DNA of 64,000 nt, from assembly GCA_002256345.1 (NCBI GenBank), contig NKIY01000002.1:124001-188000 (forward strand), given 5' to 3'. The position numbers and the translations under genes were made by a program. This DNA comes from Bradyrhizobiaceae bacterium PARB1. GTDB lineage: Bacteria > Pseudomonadota > Alphaproteobacteria > Rhizobiales > Xanthobacteraceae. Of this stretch, positions 7,609-15,685 are shown one piece after another. Each line of letters starts with the position of its first letter. Positions within the stretch are counted from its first letter, which is position 1. A model generated the notes under the pieces. The model made no database searches. It was not told where the DNA came from and saw only the letters and a list, made by a program, of their open reading frames with translations.

Positions 7609-9021
7609 TCAGATCAACCCCGCCAGTTTCATCAGCACGCCCGCCACACAGGACGCACCAAGCACCGGCAGCATCCCGACCTTGAACCAGAGGATTGCGA
7701 TGGCAGCGGCTGCGGCCAACGCAACTGCGACGGGATCGGCGCTGGCGAGCACTGGTGCGTCGAAATTGAAGCCATAGCGCTCTATGGCAAAACTCTGCCG
7801 GAACAGCGTGTGGAGCGCGAACCAGATCGACAGATTGAGGATGACCCCGACCACCGCTGCGGTGATCGCCGCCAGCGCGCCGGCAAGCGCCCGGTTGCCG
7901 CGCAGGGCCTCGATATAGGGCGCGCCGACGAAGATCCAGAGGAAGCAGGGCGCGAAAGTCACCCAGGTCGCGAGCAACCCGCCGAGCGTTCCGGCCAGCA
8001 TCGGCGACAAACCACTGGCATCGCGAAATGCCGCCATGAAGGCCACGAACTGTACCACCATGATCAGCGGTCCCGGCGTCGTCTCGGCCATGCCGAGACC
8101 GTCGAGCATCTCGCGGGCGGTGACCCAGTGATAGTGATCTGCCGCCTGCTGCGCGACATAGGCCAGCACCGCATAGGCGCCGCCGAAGGTCACCATCGCC
8201 AGCTTGCTGAAGAGGATCGCAATCTGGCTGAAGACACTGGTCAAGCCCAGGCCCATGACAATGACGGCTACGGGAATAAGCCATACCGCCAGCCAGATCG
8301 CGAGAATCCGGAACGTGCGGGGCAGGTTCGGGCGAGCATGATGGGGAACGCCGTCGCCGAGCATGCTGTCGATCACAGCCTGAGATCTGCCGCCATGAGG
8401 CACTGCGGCAAATTGCTGATATCCAAGGCGTACGCCGATCAAGCCAACAAGACCTGCACTCAACACGATGACCGGAAACGGAACGGCAAAGAAGAAGATC
8501 GCTACGAAAGCGATGCCCGCGATCGCATACATCACCGAATTGCCGAGCGCGCGCCGGCCGACCCTGATCACCGCTTCGATGACGATGGCAAGGACCGCCG
8601 ATTTCAAACCGAAAAACAGCGCGGCGACAAAGCCCACATTGCCATAGGCCGCATAGATATAGCTCAGCGCCATGATGGCGATAACGCCCGGCAAAATGAA
8701 CAGGAGGCCTGCGACGAGGCCGCCGGCAGTCCGATGCAACAGCCAGCCCATATAGGTCGCCATCTGCTGCGCCTCGGGGCCAGGCAGCAACATGCAGTAA
8801 TTCAGCGCGTGCAGAAATCGCGCCTCGGAGATCCAGTTCTTCTCTTCGACGACGATGCGATGCATCACTGCGATCTGGCCAGCAGGCCCGCCAAAGGAGA
8901 GCAGGGCAATGCGGAACCACACGCGCAGGGCCTCGGAGAAGGAGATTCCGTGCGAGCGGACGGGATCGATGGTGGGATCGCCCGACGAAACGTCGGGAAG
9001 CTTCGGCTCGATAGCAGACAT
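7609..9021 (-). CDS. chrA: Chromate transporter, ChrA family
   Basis: A 470-residue CHR-superfamily membrane transporter with two homologous halves. The N-half has SFGGPAGQIAVMHR and LLPGPEAQQMATYMGW. The C-half has TFGGAYAVLAYVAQQ and ETTPGPLIMVVQFVAF. I start at ATG 9021; the open frame extends upstream but without a better ribosome site or conserved sequence. The family exports chromate, probably by proton exchange, and some members serve other oxyanions. It is divergent from the caspase gene with about 235 bases between starts, so the two may share a regulatory region. Confidence 0.92.
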   Translation of the reverse strand: MSAIEPKLPDVSSGDPTIDPVRSHGISFSEALRVWFRIALLSFGGPAGQIAVMHRIVVEEKNWISEARFLHALNYCMLLPGPEAQQMATYMGWLLHRTAGGLVAGLLFILPGVIAIMALSYIYAAYGNVGFVAALFFGLKSAVLAIVIEAVIRVGRRALGNSVMYAIAGIAFVAIFFFAVPFPVIVLSAGLVGLIGVRLGYQQFAAVPHGGRSQAVIDSMLGDGVPHHARPNLPRTFRILAIWLAVWLIPVAVIVMGLGLTSVFSQIAILFSKLAMVTFGGAYAVLAYVAQQAADHYHWVTAREMLDGLGMAETTPGPLIMVVQFVAFMAAFRDASGLSPMLAGTLGGLLATWVTFAPCFLWIFVGAPYIEALRGNRALAGALAAITAAVVGVILNLSIWFALHTLFRQSFAIERYGFNFDAPVLASADPVAVALAAAAAIAILWFKVGMLPVLGASCVAGVLMKLAGLI

Positions 9022-9256
9022 GCGGCGCCCTTGGTGCACAACAGGACGCGATGCTTGGGCATGTTGCCTGATGGGGAGATCGCTAATCCCCATTGCATGA
9101 ACTAAACCGGCCGATGGTGCGTCTGTCAATTCGTCAGGCGTGTCATCCTGCGCAATCGTCGGTCGCAGCCCGGCGCGTTGTCTCGTCGGCGTGCCCTGAC
9201 TATGCCATGAATGTTCGATTATCCCGACACAGGGCGGCGAAGCGGGCAGGGAGCTT

Positions 9257-10735
9257 ATGACGCATTCGAGATTTCGACGATTGGTCGTCGCGGCGGTGCT
9301 CGCGCTCGCACCGGTTTTCTCTCCTGCAATGGCGCAGACAATTCGTAATGTCCCCGAGAACAATGCATCTGTCGCTCGGGCTAACAATGCGGCACTGGCC
9401 TATTTCAAGAAGGGCGACTATCAGCGCACGCTATCGGCGCTGGATGATATCATCCGCCGCCATCCCAATGCGGCGCTTGCTTACTCCAATCGCGGCGCGG
9501 TCTATTTTCAGCTCAAGAAATACGATGAGGCCGTCAAGGATTACACGCAGGCGATCGGCCTCGGCCAGAACGACACCGTCACAGTGCTTAACCGGGCGTC
9601 GGCCTATTCGAAGAACGGCGAGTTCGATCGGGCTCTGGACGATTGCAATGCGATCATCCGCGTCAACCCGCGCAATGCCGTTGCCTATCGTGTCTGCGGT
9701 GTCGCCTATCAGGGCAAGGGGGACACAGAGCGGGCGTTCACGAATCTGAACGAGTCGGCGCGGATGGACCCACGCGCAGCCAAGACCTTCGTTGCGCGCG
9801 GCATCGCCTATGAGCAGGTCGGGCAGAGCGACAAGGCCAAGGCAGATTTCTCCCAGGCTGGCCGCATCGATCCGTCGACAGTGACGCCTGCGCAGTTGGC
9901 TGAGGCCCGTGAACGCGCCGGCGGTCCGCGCCCGGCGCCGAATCCCGCGCCGCCTGCCGTCACCGCCGCGAAGCAAACAACGCCTGACCTCGCGCCGATT
10001 GTGACCGCGCAGAACGCTCCGGGAGGTGAAACCCGCGTTGCGCTGGTCATCGGCAATGGTTCCTATGCCTCGGTACCGAAACTGCCGAACCCGAGCAGCG
10101 ATGCGAAAGCGGTGGCGGATTCGCTGCGCGCTGCCGGTTTCAAAACCGTGCATCTCGACAATGACCTCAGCGCCTCGGCCATGCGCGAGGCGCTGAATAC
10201 ATTTTCGACGGAGGCGTCGCAGGCCGACTGGGCGGTCGTCTACTATGCCGGTCACGGTATCGAAGTGAACGGCGTCAACTATCTGATCCCGATCGATGCC
10301 AAATTGAAGACCGACCGGGCTGTCCAGTTCGAGGCCGTACCCCTCGACTCGGTACTGACGAGCGTGGAAAGCGCGCGAAAGTTGCGTCTGGTCATTCTGG
10401 ATGCGTGCCGCGACAATCCGTTCCTGCGCGATATGGCCAGGACGGTTGCAAGCCGGTCAGTGGGGCGGGGCCTTGCCCGGATCGAGCCGGAATCGAGCGC
10501 CACCCTCGTGGCCTATGCGGCAAAAGCCGGTCAGGTGGCGTCGGACGGTGTGGCCGGGCAGGCCAACAGCCCTTTCGCAACTGCGTTGATCCGCAACATG
10601 CAGAAGCCGGGCGTCGAAATCCGCAAGTTTTTCGGTCTGGTTCGCGATGATGTGATGGCCGCGACGGGCAATGCCCAGGAACCGTTCGTTTACGGTTCGT
10701 TGGGCGGCGATGACTATTTCCTCCGCAAACCGTGA
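9257..10735 (+). CDS. Secreted TPR-caspase (peptidase C14-like orthocaspase)
   Basis: A 492-residue protein with a signal peptide ending SPAMAQ. Four to five TPR-like repeats follow (about residues 45-210, e.g. ALAYSNRGAVYFQLKKYDEA), then a Pro/Ala linker and a C-terminal caspase domain from about 255. The catalytic dyad is visible as His333 in YYAGHG and Cys384 in ILDACRDNPF. Bacterial caspase homologues usually cleave after Arg or Lys. The export signal implies action in the periplasm or outside, with TPRs recruiting a partner. The target is unknown, and no toxin or defence neighbours are seen. Confidence 0.88.
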   Translation: MTHSRFRRLVVAAVLALAPVFSPAMAQTIRNVPENNASVARANNAALAYFKKGDYQRTLSALDDIIRRHPNAALAYSNRGAVYFQLKKYDEAVKDYTQAIGLGQNDTVTVLNRASAYSKNGEFDRALDDCNAIIRVNPRNAVAYRVCGVAYQGKGDTERAFTNLNESARMDPRAAKTFVARGIAYEQVGQSDKAKADFSQAGRIDPSTVTPAQLAEARERAGGPRPAPNPAPPAVTAAKQTTPDLAPIVTAQNAPGGETRVALVIGNGSYASVPKLPNPSSDAKAVADSLRAAGFKTVHLDNDLSASAMREALNTFSTEASQADWAVVYYAGHGIEVNGVNYLIPIDAKLKTDRAVQFEAVPLDSVLTSVESARKLRLVILDACRDNPFLRDMARTVASRSVGRGLARIEPESSATLVAYAAKAGQVASDGVAGQANSPFATALIRNMQKPGVEIRKFFGLVRDDVMAATGNAQEPFVYGSLGGDDYFLRKP

Positions 10736-12512: not shown

Positions 12513-12536
12513 TAAGGCTGTTTGGAGGCCGGATCG

Positions 12537-12812
12537 ATGGCAGTTTTGACAGTCACAGCGCGAGGCCAGGTTACGTTTCGAAAGGACGTGCTCAAGCATT
12601 TGGGCATCCAGCCGGGCGACAAGATCAGGGTTGATCTCTTGCCCGATGGCCGGGCGGAACTGAAAGCCGATCAGGGTAACGGTTCCTGGCGAGAGCTCAG
12701 CGGGTTGCTGAAAGGCAAGGGAAACGGCGCCCGGTTCTCAATCGACGACCTCAACAACGCGATCTCAGAAGCCGGCGCCTTGGCCGGTGGTCGCGGACTC
12801 GCCCGCAAGTGA
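12537..12812 (+). CDS. AbrB/SpoVT-type antitoxin (VapB/MazE-like)
   Basis: A 91-residue protein whose first 50 residues form a swapped-hairpin AbrB DNA-binding domain (VTARGQVTFRKDVLKHLGI, then PGDKIRVDLLPDGRAEL). The tail (about 60-91) would wrap the toxin. I start at ATG 12537 with GGAGG upstream. Its last codons overlap the toxin start, indicating translational coupling. It should neutralise the PIN toxin downstream and repress the shared promoter through the palindrome at 12487-12512. Confidence 0.88.
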   Translation: MAVLTVTARGQVTFRKDVLKHLGIQPGDKIRVDLLPDGRAELKADQGNGSWRELSGLLKGKGNGARFSIDDLNNAISEAGALAGGRGLARK

Positions 12813-13207
12813 AAATCTGCGTCGATACGAATGTACTTGTGCGTTTGGTCGTCGGAGATGACGAGACGCAGCAGCGACGCGCGGTCGAAACCCTTGAGGG
12901 TGCCGAACTCGTCGCAATCAGTGTTCTATCGCTTTGCGAGTTCGCCTGGGTGCTCGATCGAATCTATCGGATTGAGCGGAGCGATGTCTCCAACGCGATC
13001 CGTCGACTTATCGATATGCGTAATGTCGTTGCCAACCGGCCTGCCATTGAGGCTGGGCTGGCCGTTCTCGATGCCGGCGGAGATTTTGCGGATGGCGTTG
13101 TCGCCTTTGAAGGACGATGGCTTGGCGGCGAGACCTTCGTGACCTTTGACAAGAAAGCAGTGAAATTGCTCGAAGGGCAGGGTATCGCAGCGCGTATGGT
13201 GCCCTGA
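12809..13207 (+). CDS. PIN-domain toxin ribonuclease (VapC-like)
   Basis: A 132-residue PIN-domain nuclease starting at GTG 12809 in a GTGA overlap with the antitoxin stop. The acidic metal-binding set is complete: Asp6 in CVDTNVLVR, Glu44 in LCEFAW, Asp92/Asp95 in GDFADGVVAF and Asp114 in FDKKA. VapC toxins cleave tRNA or rRNA loops to halt translation. With all residues present it should be active. The pair stands alone between unrelated housekeeping genes, as chromosomal TA modules often do. Confidence 0.9.
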   Translation: MKICVDTNVLVRLVVGDDETQQRRAVETLEGAELVAISVLSLCEFAWVLDRIYRIERSDVSNAIRRLIDMRNVVANRPAIEAGLAVLDAGGDFADGVVAFEGRWLGGETFVTFDKKAVKLLEGQGIAARMVP

Positions 13208-13215
13208 TAAACAAT

Positions 13216-13244
13216 CTTGACGTTTCATGGCCGTGCCTCTATGT
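13216..13244 (+). promoter_or_regulatory. Putative sigma-70 promoter of the paiB-argC leader
   Basis: CTTGAC (13216-13221), 17 bases, then CTATGT (13239-13244) matches the rhizobial CTTGAC-N17-CTATAT consensus at 11 of 12 positions with exact spacing. The predicted transcript start is near 13250-13253, almost on the ATG of the short Arg-rich leader ORF. The leader would then be leaderless or nearly so, as described for trpL in Sinorhizobium. Confidence 0.6.
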
Positions 13245-13252
13245 CGGCGGCC

Positions 13253-13324
13253 ATGATCCATTTCGTGACCAGCGCCATCGCCCGCCGTCGCCGCATTCCC
13301 GCGGCAGCAGGCGCTCGTCTCTAG
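13253..13324 (+). CDS. Arg-rich leader peptide (candidate attenuator ORF)
   Basis: A 23-codon ORF, ATG 13253 to TAG 13322-13324. Residues 11-14 are four consecutive arginines (codons 13283-13294) and a fifth Arg is residue 22. It lies immediately after a good promoter and 9 bases before a strong terminator hairpin, upstream of paiB and the arginine-biosynthesis gene argC. It has no homology I recognise and is too short to be a domain. The position, composition and overlapping hairpins suggest a ribosome-mediated attenuation leader sensing Arg-tRNA. A chance short frame in GC-rich DNA is the alternative. Confidence 0.5.
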   Translation: MIHFVTSAIARRRRIPAAAGARL

Positions 13325-13361
13325 GATCGCCTCACTGCCGCCGGATACGGTCCGCGGCAGT
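13271..13361 (+). promoter_or_regulatory. Candidate arginine attenuator (three mutually exclusive hairpins)
   Basis: Region 1:2: AGCGCC 13271-13276 with GGCGCT 13310-13315, enclosing GCCGC 13290-13294 with GCGGC 13301-13305. This stem covers the four Arg codons. Region 2:3 (antiterminator): GCGGCAG 13301-13307 with CTGCCGC 13335-13341. Region 3:4 (terminator): 13334-13345 with 13351-13361. GCGGCAG occurs in both region 2 and region 4 and so competes for the same partner. Stalling at Arg codons would free region 2 and favour readthrough into paiB-argC. Confidence 0.55.
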
Positions 13362-13370
13362 CTTTCTTCC
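13334..13370 (+). terminator. Hairpin terminator after the leader peptide
   Basis: ACTGCCG..CGGA (13334-13345) pairs over 11 base pairs with TCCGCGGCAGT (13351-13361), with one bulged C and a five-base TACGG loop. A pyrimidine-rich run, CTTTCTTCC, follows. It lies between the leader ORF and paiB (start 13423). It could also terminate vapC transcripts. The U-tract is imperfect, so strength is uncertain. Confidence 0.5.
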
Positions 13371-13422
13371 CAACAGCAGCGCGATCGATCATCCGGCGGC
13401 CTTCACCCAGAAGGAGCCCGAC

Positions 13423-14109
13423 ATGTATACCCCGCCGAGATTCCAGACCGACCGCAGCAACGCCCTCGCGTTCGCGGACGCGCGTGGCTTCGGCACGATC
13501 TGCGCCTTCGACGGCCGCAAGCCGATCGGATCGGCGGTCCCGTTCTGTCTGACTTACGGCAATGACGGCACGCCGCATCTCGCCTTCCATCTCGCCCGGC
13601 AGAACGCGCTCCTGAAGCTCGCCGACGGTGTGACGCCATGGGCCATGGCGATCACGGGCGCAGACGCCTATGTCTCGGCCGACTGGTACGCATCGCCCGA
13701 TCAGGTGCCAACCTGGCTGTATCAGGCGGTGCACCTCACAGGTCCCGCACGGCTCTTGTCCGATCGCGAACTCGGCCCGCATCTTGACGCGCTGAGCGCA
13801 AGGTTCGAAAGCTGGCTCGCGCCGAAGCGGCCCTGGACGTCAGACAAGATGGCGGCGGGGCGGCTGGACGCGATGAAGAAGGCGATCGTCGGCGTGGTGA
13901 TGGCGGTGGATGAGGTGGAGGGGAGCTTCAAGCTCAACCAGCACAAGTCCGACGCCGATCATCTGGCTGTCATGAGCGCGCTGGCCATGCGACCGGAGCC
14001 GGCCGCCGTTGAGATCGCGGACGAGATGCGCAAATTACGGCCGCATTTGTTTGCGGAAGAGACGTCACATTTGGCTGCTATGGCCGAGGCGGAAGGATTT
14101 ATGGGATGA
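13423..14109 (+). CDS. PaiB-family FMN-binding negative regulator
   Basis: A 228-residue protein with the split-barrel fold of PaiB / pyridoxamine-phosphate-oxidase-like flavin binders. It begins MYTPPRF, has GADAYVSADWYASPDQVPTW, and near residue 180 the family signature FKLNQHKSDAD. An AAGGAG site precedes ATG 13423. In Bacillus, PaiB with PaiA influences sporulation and protease genes and is linked to polyamines. Its last bases overlap argC (ATGA), so the two are translationally coupled. A link between this flavoprotein and arginine or polyamine metabolism is an inference from that coupling. Confidence 0.85.
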   Translation: MYTPPRFQTDRSNALAFADARGFGTICAFDGRKPIGSAVPFCLTYGNDGTPHLAFHLARQNALLKLADGVTPWAMAITGADAYVSADWYASPDQVPTWLYQAVHLTGPARLLSDRELGPHLDALSARFESWLAPKRPWTSDKMAAGRLDAMKKAIVGVVMAVDEVEGSFKLNQHKSDADHLAVMSALAMRPEPAAVEIADEMRKLRPHLFAEETSHLAAMAEAEGFMG

Positions 14110-15164
14110 GCAACAAGAAGAAGATCGGCATTCTGGGTGCCTCCGGCTATACCGGCGCTGAACTCGTACGGCTGCTGCTGCGCCACCCGAAGGTCGAGCT
14201 GACGATCCTCACTGCCGATCGGCGTGCCGGGCAGCAGATGGGCGACGTCTTTCCGCAATTCGCGCCTTACGACCTGCCGACGCTGGTGTCTATCGACAGC
14301 GTTGACTGGGCCACCGCCGGCCTCGATCTCGTCTTCTGCGCGCTGCCGCATGCGACCACGCAGAAGGTTCTGCAAGATCTGCTTGCCAAGGCGCCCGAGA
14401 CCAAGGTGGTCGATCTGTCAGCCGATTTCCGGCTCAGTGATCCCGCCGCTTATGCCAAGTGGTACGGCCACGAGCATCATGCGCTGGAGCTGCAGAAAGA
14501 AGCTGTCTACGGCCTCGTGGAGGTCTATCGCCGCGACATCAAGAAGGCGCGCCTCGTGGCCAATCCCGGCTGCTACACATCGTGCGCACAGCTGCCGCTG
14601 GTGCCGTTGATCAAGGCCAAGGCCATCGAGACCGACGAGATCGTTATCGACGCCAAATCGGGCATGACTGGTGCTGGCCGTTCTGCCAAGGAAGAGATGC
14701 TGTTCTCGGAAGTGTCGGACGGCTTTAACGCCTATGGCGTTGGCAAGCACCGACATATGGCCGAGCTCGATGAGCAGTTCTCCAAGGCCGCGGGCAAGGA
14801 GGTCATCGTCACCTTCACGCCGCATCTGTTGCCGCAGAACCGCGGCATCCTCTCGACGATCTATGTGCGCGGCCGGCGCGGCAAGACCGCCGAGGAGCTG
14901 CACGAGATCCTGGTGAAGCAGTATGAAAAGGAGCCGTTCGTCTATGTCCTGCCGTTCGGCAAGACGCCGCATACGCGCCACGTTCGCGGCTCCAACATGA
15001 CTTTCATCGGCGTCGCTGCCGACCGTATCCCGGGCCGGGCGATCATCGTCTCGACTTTGGACAACCTTACCAAGGGCGCGTCGGGGCAGGCGGTGCAGAA
15101 CATGAATCTGGTGCTCGGTTTCGCCGAGACCCTCGGAATCGATCAGCCGGCGATGTTCCCGTAA
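14106..15164 (+). CDS. argC: N-acetyl-gamma-glutamyl-phosphate reductase
   Basis: A 352-residue cytosolic enzyme that reduces N-acetylglutamyl phosphate to the semialdehyde with NADPH, the third step of arginine synthesis. It has the N-terminal dinucleotide loop GASGYTGAELVRLL, the active-site Cys156 in NPGCYTS, and the conserved HRHMAEL and PHLLPQNRGILST segments. Length is normal for the family. It overlaps paiB by four bases (ATGA) and should share its promoter and the upstream candidate attenuator, consistent with end-product control by arginine. Confidence 0.96.
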   Translation: MSNKKKIGILGASGYTGAELVRLLLRHPKVELTILTADRRAGQQMGDVFPQFAPYDLPTLVSIDSVDWATAGLDLVFCALPHATTQKVLQDLLAKAPETKVVDLSADFRLSDPAAYAKWYGHEHHALELQKEAVYGLVEVYRRDIKKARLVANPGCYTSCAQLPLVPLIKAKAIETDEIVIDAKSGMTGAGRSAKEEMLFSEVSDGFNAYGVGKHRHMAELDEQFSKAAGKEVIVTFTPHLLPQNRGILSTIYVRGRRGKTAEELHEILVKQYEKEPFVYVLPFGKTPHTRHVRGSNMTFIGVAADRIPGRAIIVSTLDNLTKGASGQAVQNMNLVLGFAETLGIDQPAMFP

Positions 15165-15282: not shown

Positions 15283-15345
15283 AAGGGCGGCTTGTTGCTT
15301 AATTTAGAGATGCGCCTTAAAGTAGAGATTGTGTGATAATACCCG

Positions 15346-15381
15346 CGTCATGGCCGGGCGTGTCCCAGCCATCTACGTCTT
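15346..15381. repeat. Left repeat flanking the GIY-YIG gene
   Basis: A 36-base unit, CGTCATGGCCGGGCGTGTCC at its start and CTACGTCTT at its end, lies 14 bases before the GIY-YIG start codon. It differs at only three positions from the reverse complement of 15750-15785, so the nuclease gene is bracketed by near-identical inverted repeats. Confidence 0.75.
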
Positions 15382-15394
15382 GCGGATGCGCAAC

Positions 15395-15685
15395 ATGGCT
15401 GGCGGTTACGTGTACTTCATGACGAACCGACCGAATGGCATTCTGTATGTCGGCGTAACTAACGATCTCATCCGCCGCGTCTACGAGCATCGCTGCGGCT
15501 TCGTTGAAGGTTTCACCAAGCGGTATGGCCTGAAGCGACTAGTCTATTTCGAGCGCTATGAAGACATTCGCGATGCCATCCAGCGCGAACACAATATCAA
15601 GCACTGGCCGCGTGCTTGGAAAGTTCGTCGGGTCATGATCGACAATTCGAATTGGGACGATCTCTATCCGATGATCACGCAGTGA
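15395..15685 (+). CDS. GIY-YIG nuclease-family protein
   Basis: A 96-residue single-domain GIY-YIG protein. I start at ATG 15395 because the family begins MAGYVY; the upstream open frame encodes the repeat sequence. The motif pair is present as YVYFMTNRPNG and LYVGVTNDLIRRVYEHR. The conserved QREHNIKHWPRAWK helix and the C-terminal NWDDLYP follow. These small nucleases occur in several copies in Bradyrhizobium-like genomes. The gene is bracketed by inverted repeats, which suggests a link to repeat mobility, but this is unproven. Its substrate is unknown. Confidence 0.88.
   Translation: MAGGYVYFMTNRPNGILYVGVTNDLIRRVYEHRCGFVEGFTKRYGLKRLVYFERYEDIRDAIQREHNIKHWPRAWKVRRVMIDNSNWDDLYPMITQ

Follow-up and report, generated by a model that had tools for sequence, protein, structure and literature searches.

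How do alphaproteobacteria that lack ArgR adjust their synthesis of arginine? ArgR is conserved in gammaproteobacteria and reported absent in the other proteobacterial classes (PMC5343134, in the parts of the paper available to us), and the ArgR profile TIGR01529 matched none of 149 genomes of the family studied here, the window's own genome included, with 9 of 14 controls positive. Among the open-licence papers that we found, in their accessible portions, arginine adjustment in such bacteria is left unexplained; a leader ahead of argC offers an answer. It lies in the window, the whole 64,000-nucleotide stretch of Bradyrhizobiaceae bacterium PARB1 that we analysed, where an earlier note had proposed an arginine-sensing attenuator in front of paiB-argC. 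We consider it highly probable that this leader attenuates transcription by way of a translating ribosome, with charged tRNA-Arg as the signal and argC (in the window, paiB-argC) as the target. Its parts are as follows.

13216..13244, + strand: promoter CTTGAC-N17-CTATGT, read from the sequence
13253..13324, + strand: leader ORF, 23 codons plus TAG, read from the sequence, with homologous ORFs in relatives
13283..13294, + strand: four Arg codons CGC CGT CGC CGC (codons 11-14), the putative sensor, overlapping region 1
13290..13305, + strand: hairpin 1:2, GCCGC 13290-13294 with GCGGC 13301-13305, from the MFE and consensus folds
13301..13341, + strand: putative antiterminator 2:3, GCGGCAG 13301-13307 with CTGCCGC 13335-13341, -24.1 kcal/mol including its extension
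13309-13313 with 13328-13332, + strand: antiterminator extension, AGGCG with CGCCT, from folding
13334..13361, + strand: putative terminator hairpin 3:4, from the MFE and consensus folds, -18.8 kcal/mol
13362..13371, + strand: imperfect U-tract CTTTCTTCCC, read from the sequence
13391..13400, + strand: region 5, ATCCGGCGGC, able to pair with region 3 at 13337-13346, from folding
13400..13416, + strand: small hairpin CCTTC/GAAGG over the paiB Shine-Dalgarno sequence GAAGGAG, from folding
13423..14109, + strand: paiB-like gene (FMN_bind_2, PF04299), profile match
14106..15164, + strand: argC, N-acetyl-gamma-glutamyl-phosphate reductase (TIGR01850), profile match

When we re-read the window, the promoter, the ORF, the RRRR run and the stem coordinates of the earlier note agreed letter for letter, and the PF04299 and TIGR01850 matches downstream of the leader bear out its naming of paiB and argC as the next genes, which overlap by ATGA. 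The promoter boxes lie at 13216-13221 (CTTGAC) and 13239-13244 (CTATGT), 17 nt apart; the -10 box is weak. Most relatives have TTGAC and a TAT-type -10 box, spaced much alike from the start codon of the leader. The window's leader ATG (13253) is 8 nt 3' of the -10 box, and the ORF runs to a TAG stop at 13322-13324, encoding the peptide MIHFVTSAIARRRRIPAAAGARL. Given the position of its ATG, the ORF is probably leaderless, and the transcript would start at or next to the ATG. The trpL ORF of S. meliloti is leaderless (PMC7298713, in the parts available), and a start-site map of B. japonicum contains 320 starts 0-10 nt ahead of start codons (PMC4842269, likewise); the terms argC and attenuat are absent from the main text of that paper.

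Several neighbouring elements are recorded here for completeness. A short ORF (antitoxin-like by position, with no Pfam hit) and a PIN-domain ORF occupy 12522-13207; the leader lies on one side of them and, by eye, an MBL-like gene on the other. Of 30 paiB loci compared, only that of the window has this pair. Downstream of argC, the ORF at 15329-15685 presumably encodes a GIY-YIG-like protein, to judge by eye from its motif. A chrB-a RNA (RF03078, 69 bits) lies on the minus strand at 9019-9096, in the 5' portion of a long ORF on that strand (7609-9387).

Taken alone, the window sequence is unconvincing, because a generic scan detected neither a promoter within 12800-14000 nor a terminator at the leader. 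The Rfam 15 covariance models gave no match to the leader locus at the gathering score, and none to 13150-13500 even up to E 5; we therefore rejected kinship with a known Rfam RNA. A plasmid similarity search likewise gave no match. The leader is more than chance because it is conserved, not because of what this single sequence contains.

All 21 loci with a close PaiB (at least 50% identity) have a leader ORF with the same hairpin after it, and their ORFs carry an Arg run or near-run, such as RRHR in L010 and RARHRR in L019. A covariance model built from these 21 leader loci scores 120 bits at the window, the next best match in the same genome reaching 22 bits. At E up to 0.01 the model matches 189 of 296 genomes of the family, in 38 of 47 genera; under these strict filters 107 of the 296 are without a match. 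The named leader loci include Tardiphaga, Afipia, Rhodopseudomonas and Pseudolabrys, and since the named argC records nearest to the window's are Tardiphaga, the window probably comes from that genus. Across 397 genomes of the order, with the threshold at E 1e-4, the model matches 22, of which 17 belong to the family and five do not; two of these five are real and belong to a second family, f20, while around the other three the fetched sequence contains no argC. These three matches, of about 31 bits (G472, G630 and G324), were set aside as probably due to chance. One record titled Streptomyces sp. AcH 505 (L230, NZ_JTIY01000017.1) contains the leader and an argC 81% identical to the window's; this is probably contamination or mislabelling.

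To which gene does the leader belong? We opened 81 of the 189 matching genomes, namely those of L001-L021 and 60 chosen across genera and scores, taking the best match in each, and in all 81 it is followed downstream by paiB, by an argC-type gene or by both. An ArgC-type reductase is present at 20 of the first 21 loci, and the remaining one (L014) stops at a contig edge. Among the 60 further matches, argC or a gene of a second type, argC_other, is found downstream in 59; at the sixtieth (L082) paiB follows, with no argC match up to the contig end. In 33 of the 60, paiB is absent and the leader starts 154-258 nt before argC; in 26, L082 included, paiB comes next and is then followed, L082 excepted, by argC or argC_other. 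At L087, about 450 nt separate the leader from argC, and the segment 298-789 looks by eye like a remnant of paiB. The same leader-argC spacing is seen at L215 and L223; all three loci are from Rhodopseudomonas-like genomes, and their leader and argC are intact.

The argC_other gene stands in place of the TIGR01850-type argC in 13 of the 60 (L069, L070, L077-L081, L085, L089, L091, L092, L097 and L108), its product sharing 77-84% identity with the L009 argC_other protein and being assigned to the TIGR01851 type by that similarity. The family assignment is TIGR01850 for the window and TIGR01851 for L009 and L021; at L009 both argC types stand behind the leader. Because the leader occurs before argC without paiB, and before either type of argC, it tracks the arginine enzyme. 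We rejected the reading of the leader as a paiB element, since at loci that lack paiB it immediately precedes argC; at L022-L030, nine loci with a distant paiB, neither the ORF scan nor the model gave a leader.

The association also holds from the side of the enzyme. At 80 loci chosen by ArgC alone (the best 80 of 336, from named genomes), the model matches the coding strand upstream in 77. One model-negative locus, L262, has by eye a leader with RR and a T6 terminator; at L200, which is the contig of L009, the leader lies outside the fetched flank; at the third, L228, no leader was found. Outside this set of 80, none was found either at the argC gene of L146 (G063), the one genome that we looked at among the 107 of the family without a match. 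Nine minus-strand matches around the argC-selected loci, five opposite leaders and four about 1.1 kb beyond argC in what appears to be another gene, were set aside as probable chance. The anatomy of the leader and its association with argC are real.

To compare leaders in detail, we reduced 158 to 128 distinct sequences, of which 117 were parsed and 11 dropped with regions that were not parsable; the 117 serve for the counts of pairing capacity, Arg runs, U-tracts, swapped partners and region 3 folds, and, being related sequences, are not independent. The earlier note had asked whether the Arg run is conserved in relatives, and it is: at least three consecutive Arg codons are present in 111 of 117 leaders, while the neighbouring residues drift. 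The longest run is four codons in 81 leaders, three in 18, five in 12, two in five and one in a single leader. Codons within the run vary synonymously (CGC 394, CGT 90, CGA 2, AGG 1). Outside the run, most peptide positions have an entropy above 2 bits, in a table anchored on the run, whose own conservation there is by construction. The ORFs range from 16 to 27 codons. The median distance is 19 nt from the first Arg codon to the region 2 core and 16 nt from the stop codon to region 3; judged by the footprint of a ribosome, this spacing suits a stall at the Arg codons that would leave region 2 free and a terminating ribosome that would leave region 3 free.

For the leader RNA the folding energy is -48 kcal/mol (z -3.3), a value equalled by 1 of 200 shuffles. 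The antiterminator pairing described earlier is present but is too short as given; the AGGCG/CGCCT pairs extend it. Folding energies in the window are -15.4 kcal/mol for the 1:2 stretch, -24.1 for 2:3 with its extension and -18.8 for 3:4 by itself. When regions 2, 3 and 4 are all available, the terminator form is favoured (-29.5 versus -24.1 kcal/mol), so antitermination must be kinetic.

Compensatory changes in the stems were the other expectation of the earlier note, and here the pairing capacity is kept but few independent compensatory changes are found. At the second position outside the stem core, regions 2, 3 and 4 read C-G-C in 27, G-C-G in 13 and T-A-T in 11 of the 117 leaders; the position is paired in 80 leaders for 2:3 and 90 for 3:4, where 2000 shuffles reach at most 73 and 69. 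Pairing at the first position is little better than shuffled (2:3, 110 versus a shuffle maximum of 108; 3:4, 108 versus 110), and the third lies within the shuffle range. For 2:3, 86 of 117 leaders have an own duplex stronger than the average over swapped partners; for 3:4, 82 of 117 do. On a tree of 67 named argC genes, double changes that keep the pair number one (2:3) and three (3:4) at the second position, and two and two at the first; the triplet differences are largely differences between clades. With one and three double changes on the tree at the second position, the evidence from covariation is weak.

Past the 3:4 stem, the window's tract CTTTCTTCCC is broken. Over the 117 leaders, U averages 4.5 per 10 nt directly after the stem versus 2.2 further downstream and 2.0 upstream. 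At most three U in these 10 nt are found in 27 of the 117, for example L011 and L223, and many members have broken U-tracts and C-rich sequence past the stem.

The same layout recurs in family f20 (one genus, 12 genomes), with stem sequences that differ from those of the window's family. All 12 genomes have a 16-codon leader with a cluster of two to four adjacent Arg residues (only two in L187 and L191), and all 12 have a terminator whose stem ends CGCGG(C/T), followed by six to eight T; the competing antiterminator has a folding energy of -13.7 to -19.6 kcal/mol. More widely, we searched 199 genomes of the order, found an argC match in 114 and fetched 51 upstream regions, 50 of them from other families; among these 51, a convincing Arg leader with a terminator was found only at two f20 loci. 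At L133, in family f45, argC is preceded by a short ORF containing a pair of adjacent Arg codons and by a site resembling a terminator, a possible further Arg leader.

In the 450 nt before argG, argD and carA of the window's own genome we found some ORFs with adjacent Arg, and the layout of the argC leader was not found there. Given the absence of ArgR and of a comparable argG, argD or carA leader, argC may therefore be a main control point of arginine synthesis.

Together, these features suggest how the leader would work. RNA synthesis would begin at or beside the ATG of the 23-codon leader. When charged tRNA-Arg is scarce, a ribosome is expected to stall at the first Arg codons and mask region 1, leaving region 2 free; 2:3 could then form ahead of the synthesis of region 4, and RNA polymerase would enter paiB-argC. 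When arginine is plentiful, the ribosome would pass region 2 to the stop codon, 3:4 would form, and transcription would end at the U-rich tract. We infer the stalling, the termination and the response to arginine from the layout of the leader.

Downstream of the terminator lies a further segment able to pair with region 3, some 30-45 nt on from where region 4 begins. In MFE folds of the readthrough RNA, region 3 pairs beyond region 4 in 84 of 117 leaders, mostly with a partner that begins at this distance, compared with 16.1 expected with dinucleotide-shuffled tails, and the probability of 3:5 exceeds that of 3:4 in 35 of 72 leaders (a set thinned from 113). Over the full 113, the Shine-Dalgarno hairpin ranks with the top tenth of its shuffles for 21 of 52 paiB-type leaders, where about 5 are expected, and in 8 of 53 argC-type leaders, which are hardly enriched. 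Predicted access to the Shine-Dalgarno sequence, calculated on the thinned 72 with a rough typing of loci as paiB or argC, differs little from state to state (0.39 versus 0.35 and 0.48 versus 0.40), a small effect. These pairings allow a tentative and on balance doubtful extension to a five-segment arginine switch with two checkpoints, termination through regions 1-4 and a post-transcriptional step through region 5. Region 5, close ahead of the Shine-Dalgarno sequence, would take region 3 whenever the ribosome clears the leader of a readthrough mRNA, such that the Arg codons would report arginine again and set the translation or stability of paiB-argC.

The same observations could be read as a leader that is mainly translational, in which regions 3 and 5 refold around the Shine-Dalgarno hairpin and 3:4 is no effective terminator. 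The excess of downstream pairing by region 3, the paiB-type hairpins (with the weaker showing of the argC type) and the poor U-tracts of some members are what such a leader would have; the nearly equal accessibility in the two states, the canonical terminators of f20 and the enrichment of U past the stem argue against it, and we regard it as improbable. We judge equally unlikely a Rho-dependent variant in which leader translation governs the access of Rho, as at speF, with no intrinsic terminator. The broken U-tracts and C-rich sequence past the stem in many members would suit Rho, which acts at the Arg-codon leader of speF (PMC6386406, in the parts available), but the stem-loop and the U-enriched tract are conserved, and f20 has U6-U8.

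Alternatively, the Arg-rich ORF might be a real small protein, or its RNA a trans-acting sRNA, with attenuation in cis secondary. Both rnTrpL and peTrpL of S. meliloti act in trans (PMC7298713, in the parts available); the entropy above 2 bits at most positions outside the Arg run and the spread in length from 16 to 27 codons make this very unlikely for the Arg leader, which may nevertheless have a role in trans. Chance, finally, would have CGC repeats of GC-rich DNA mimic Arg runs and hairpins. The region is indeed GC-rich and the generic scan saw neither promoter nor terminator, but the gap between 120 bits and 22 bits within the genome and the presence of argC in the opened loci and at 77 of the 80 argC-selected loci leave this reading scarcely credible; conservation alongside argC refutes it. 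Attenuation of transcription by a ribosome at the Arg codons is the reading that we prefer.

If true, the answer covers a large family of soil bacteria and one further family, and arginine becomes one more amino acid that governs the genes for its own synthesis through classical attenuation. The 128 distinct natural variants are a resource for the study of leaderless leader translation and of terminators with weak U-tracts. Among the matches listed in open-licence PMC full texts, in the portions accessible to us, we found no arginine attenuator of arg genes.

The comparisons that follow refer to the available parts of each source. The ArgR regulon of gammaproteobacteria (PMC5343134) serves the same pathway, but through a DNA-binding repressor. 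The Salmonella orf34-speF leader senses arginine with two consecutive Arg codons in a leader ORF (PMC6386406); it differs in controlling ornithine decarboxylase rather than arginine synthesis, and in acting through Rho, RNase G and sequestration of the RBS, with no intrinsic terminator seen. The leader Arg codons of rbfL in S. aureus also sense arginine limitation, but there stalling blocks the RBS and lowers rbf translation, with no attenuator and no arg gene (PMC13009471). The cysS attenuator of Rhodobacterales, uORFC-8-2, is an alphaproteobacterial uORF with tandem cognate codons and a terminator; it differs in its Cys codons and its tRNA synthetase gene (PMC8632094). In Sinorhizobium and Bradyrhizobium, the trpL attenuator that controls trpE(G) (PMC7298713) shares with the Arg leader a short ORF with consecutive regulatory codons, alternative antiterminator and terminator structures (predicted for the Arg leader), a cognate biosynthetic gene downstream and a home in the Rhizobiales. 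Trans roles are known only for trpL, and here Arg codons take the place of Trp codons, and argC that of trpE; in its mechanism the Arg leader is very probably a classical attenuator of new specificity.
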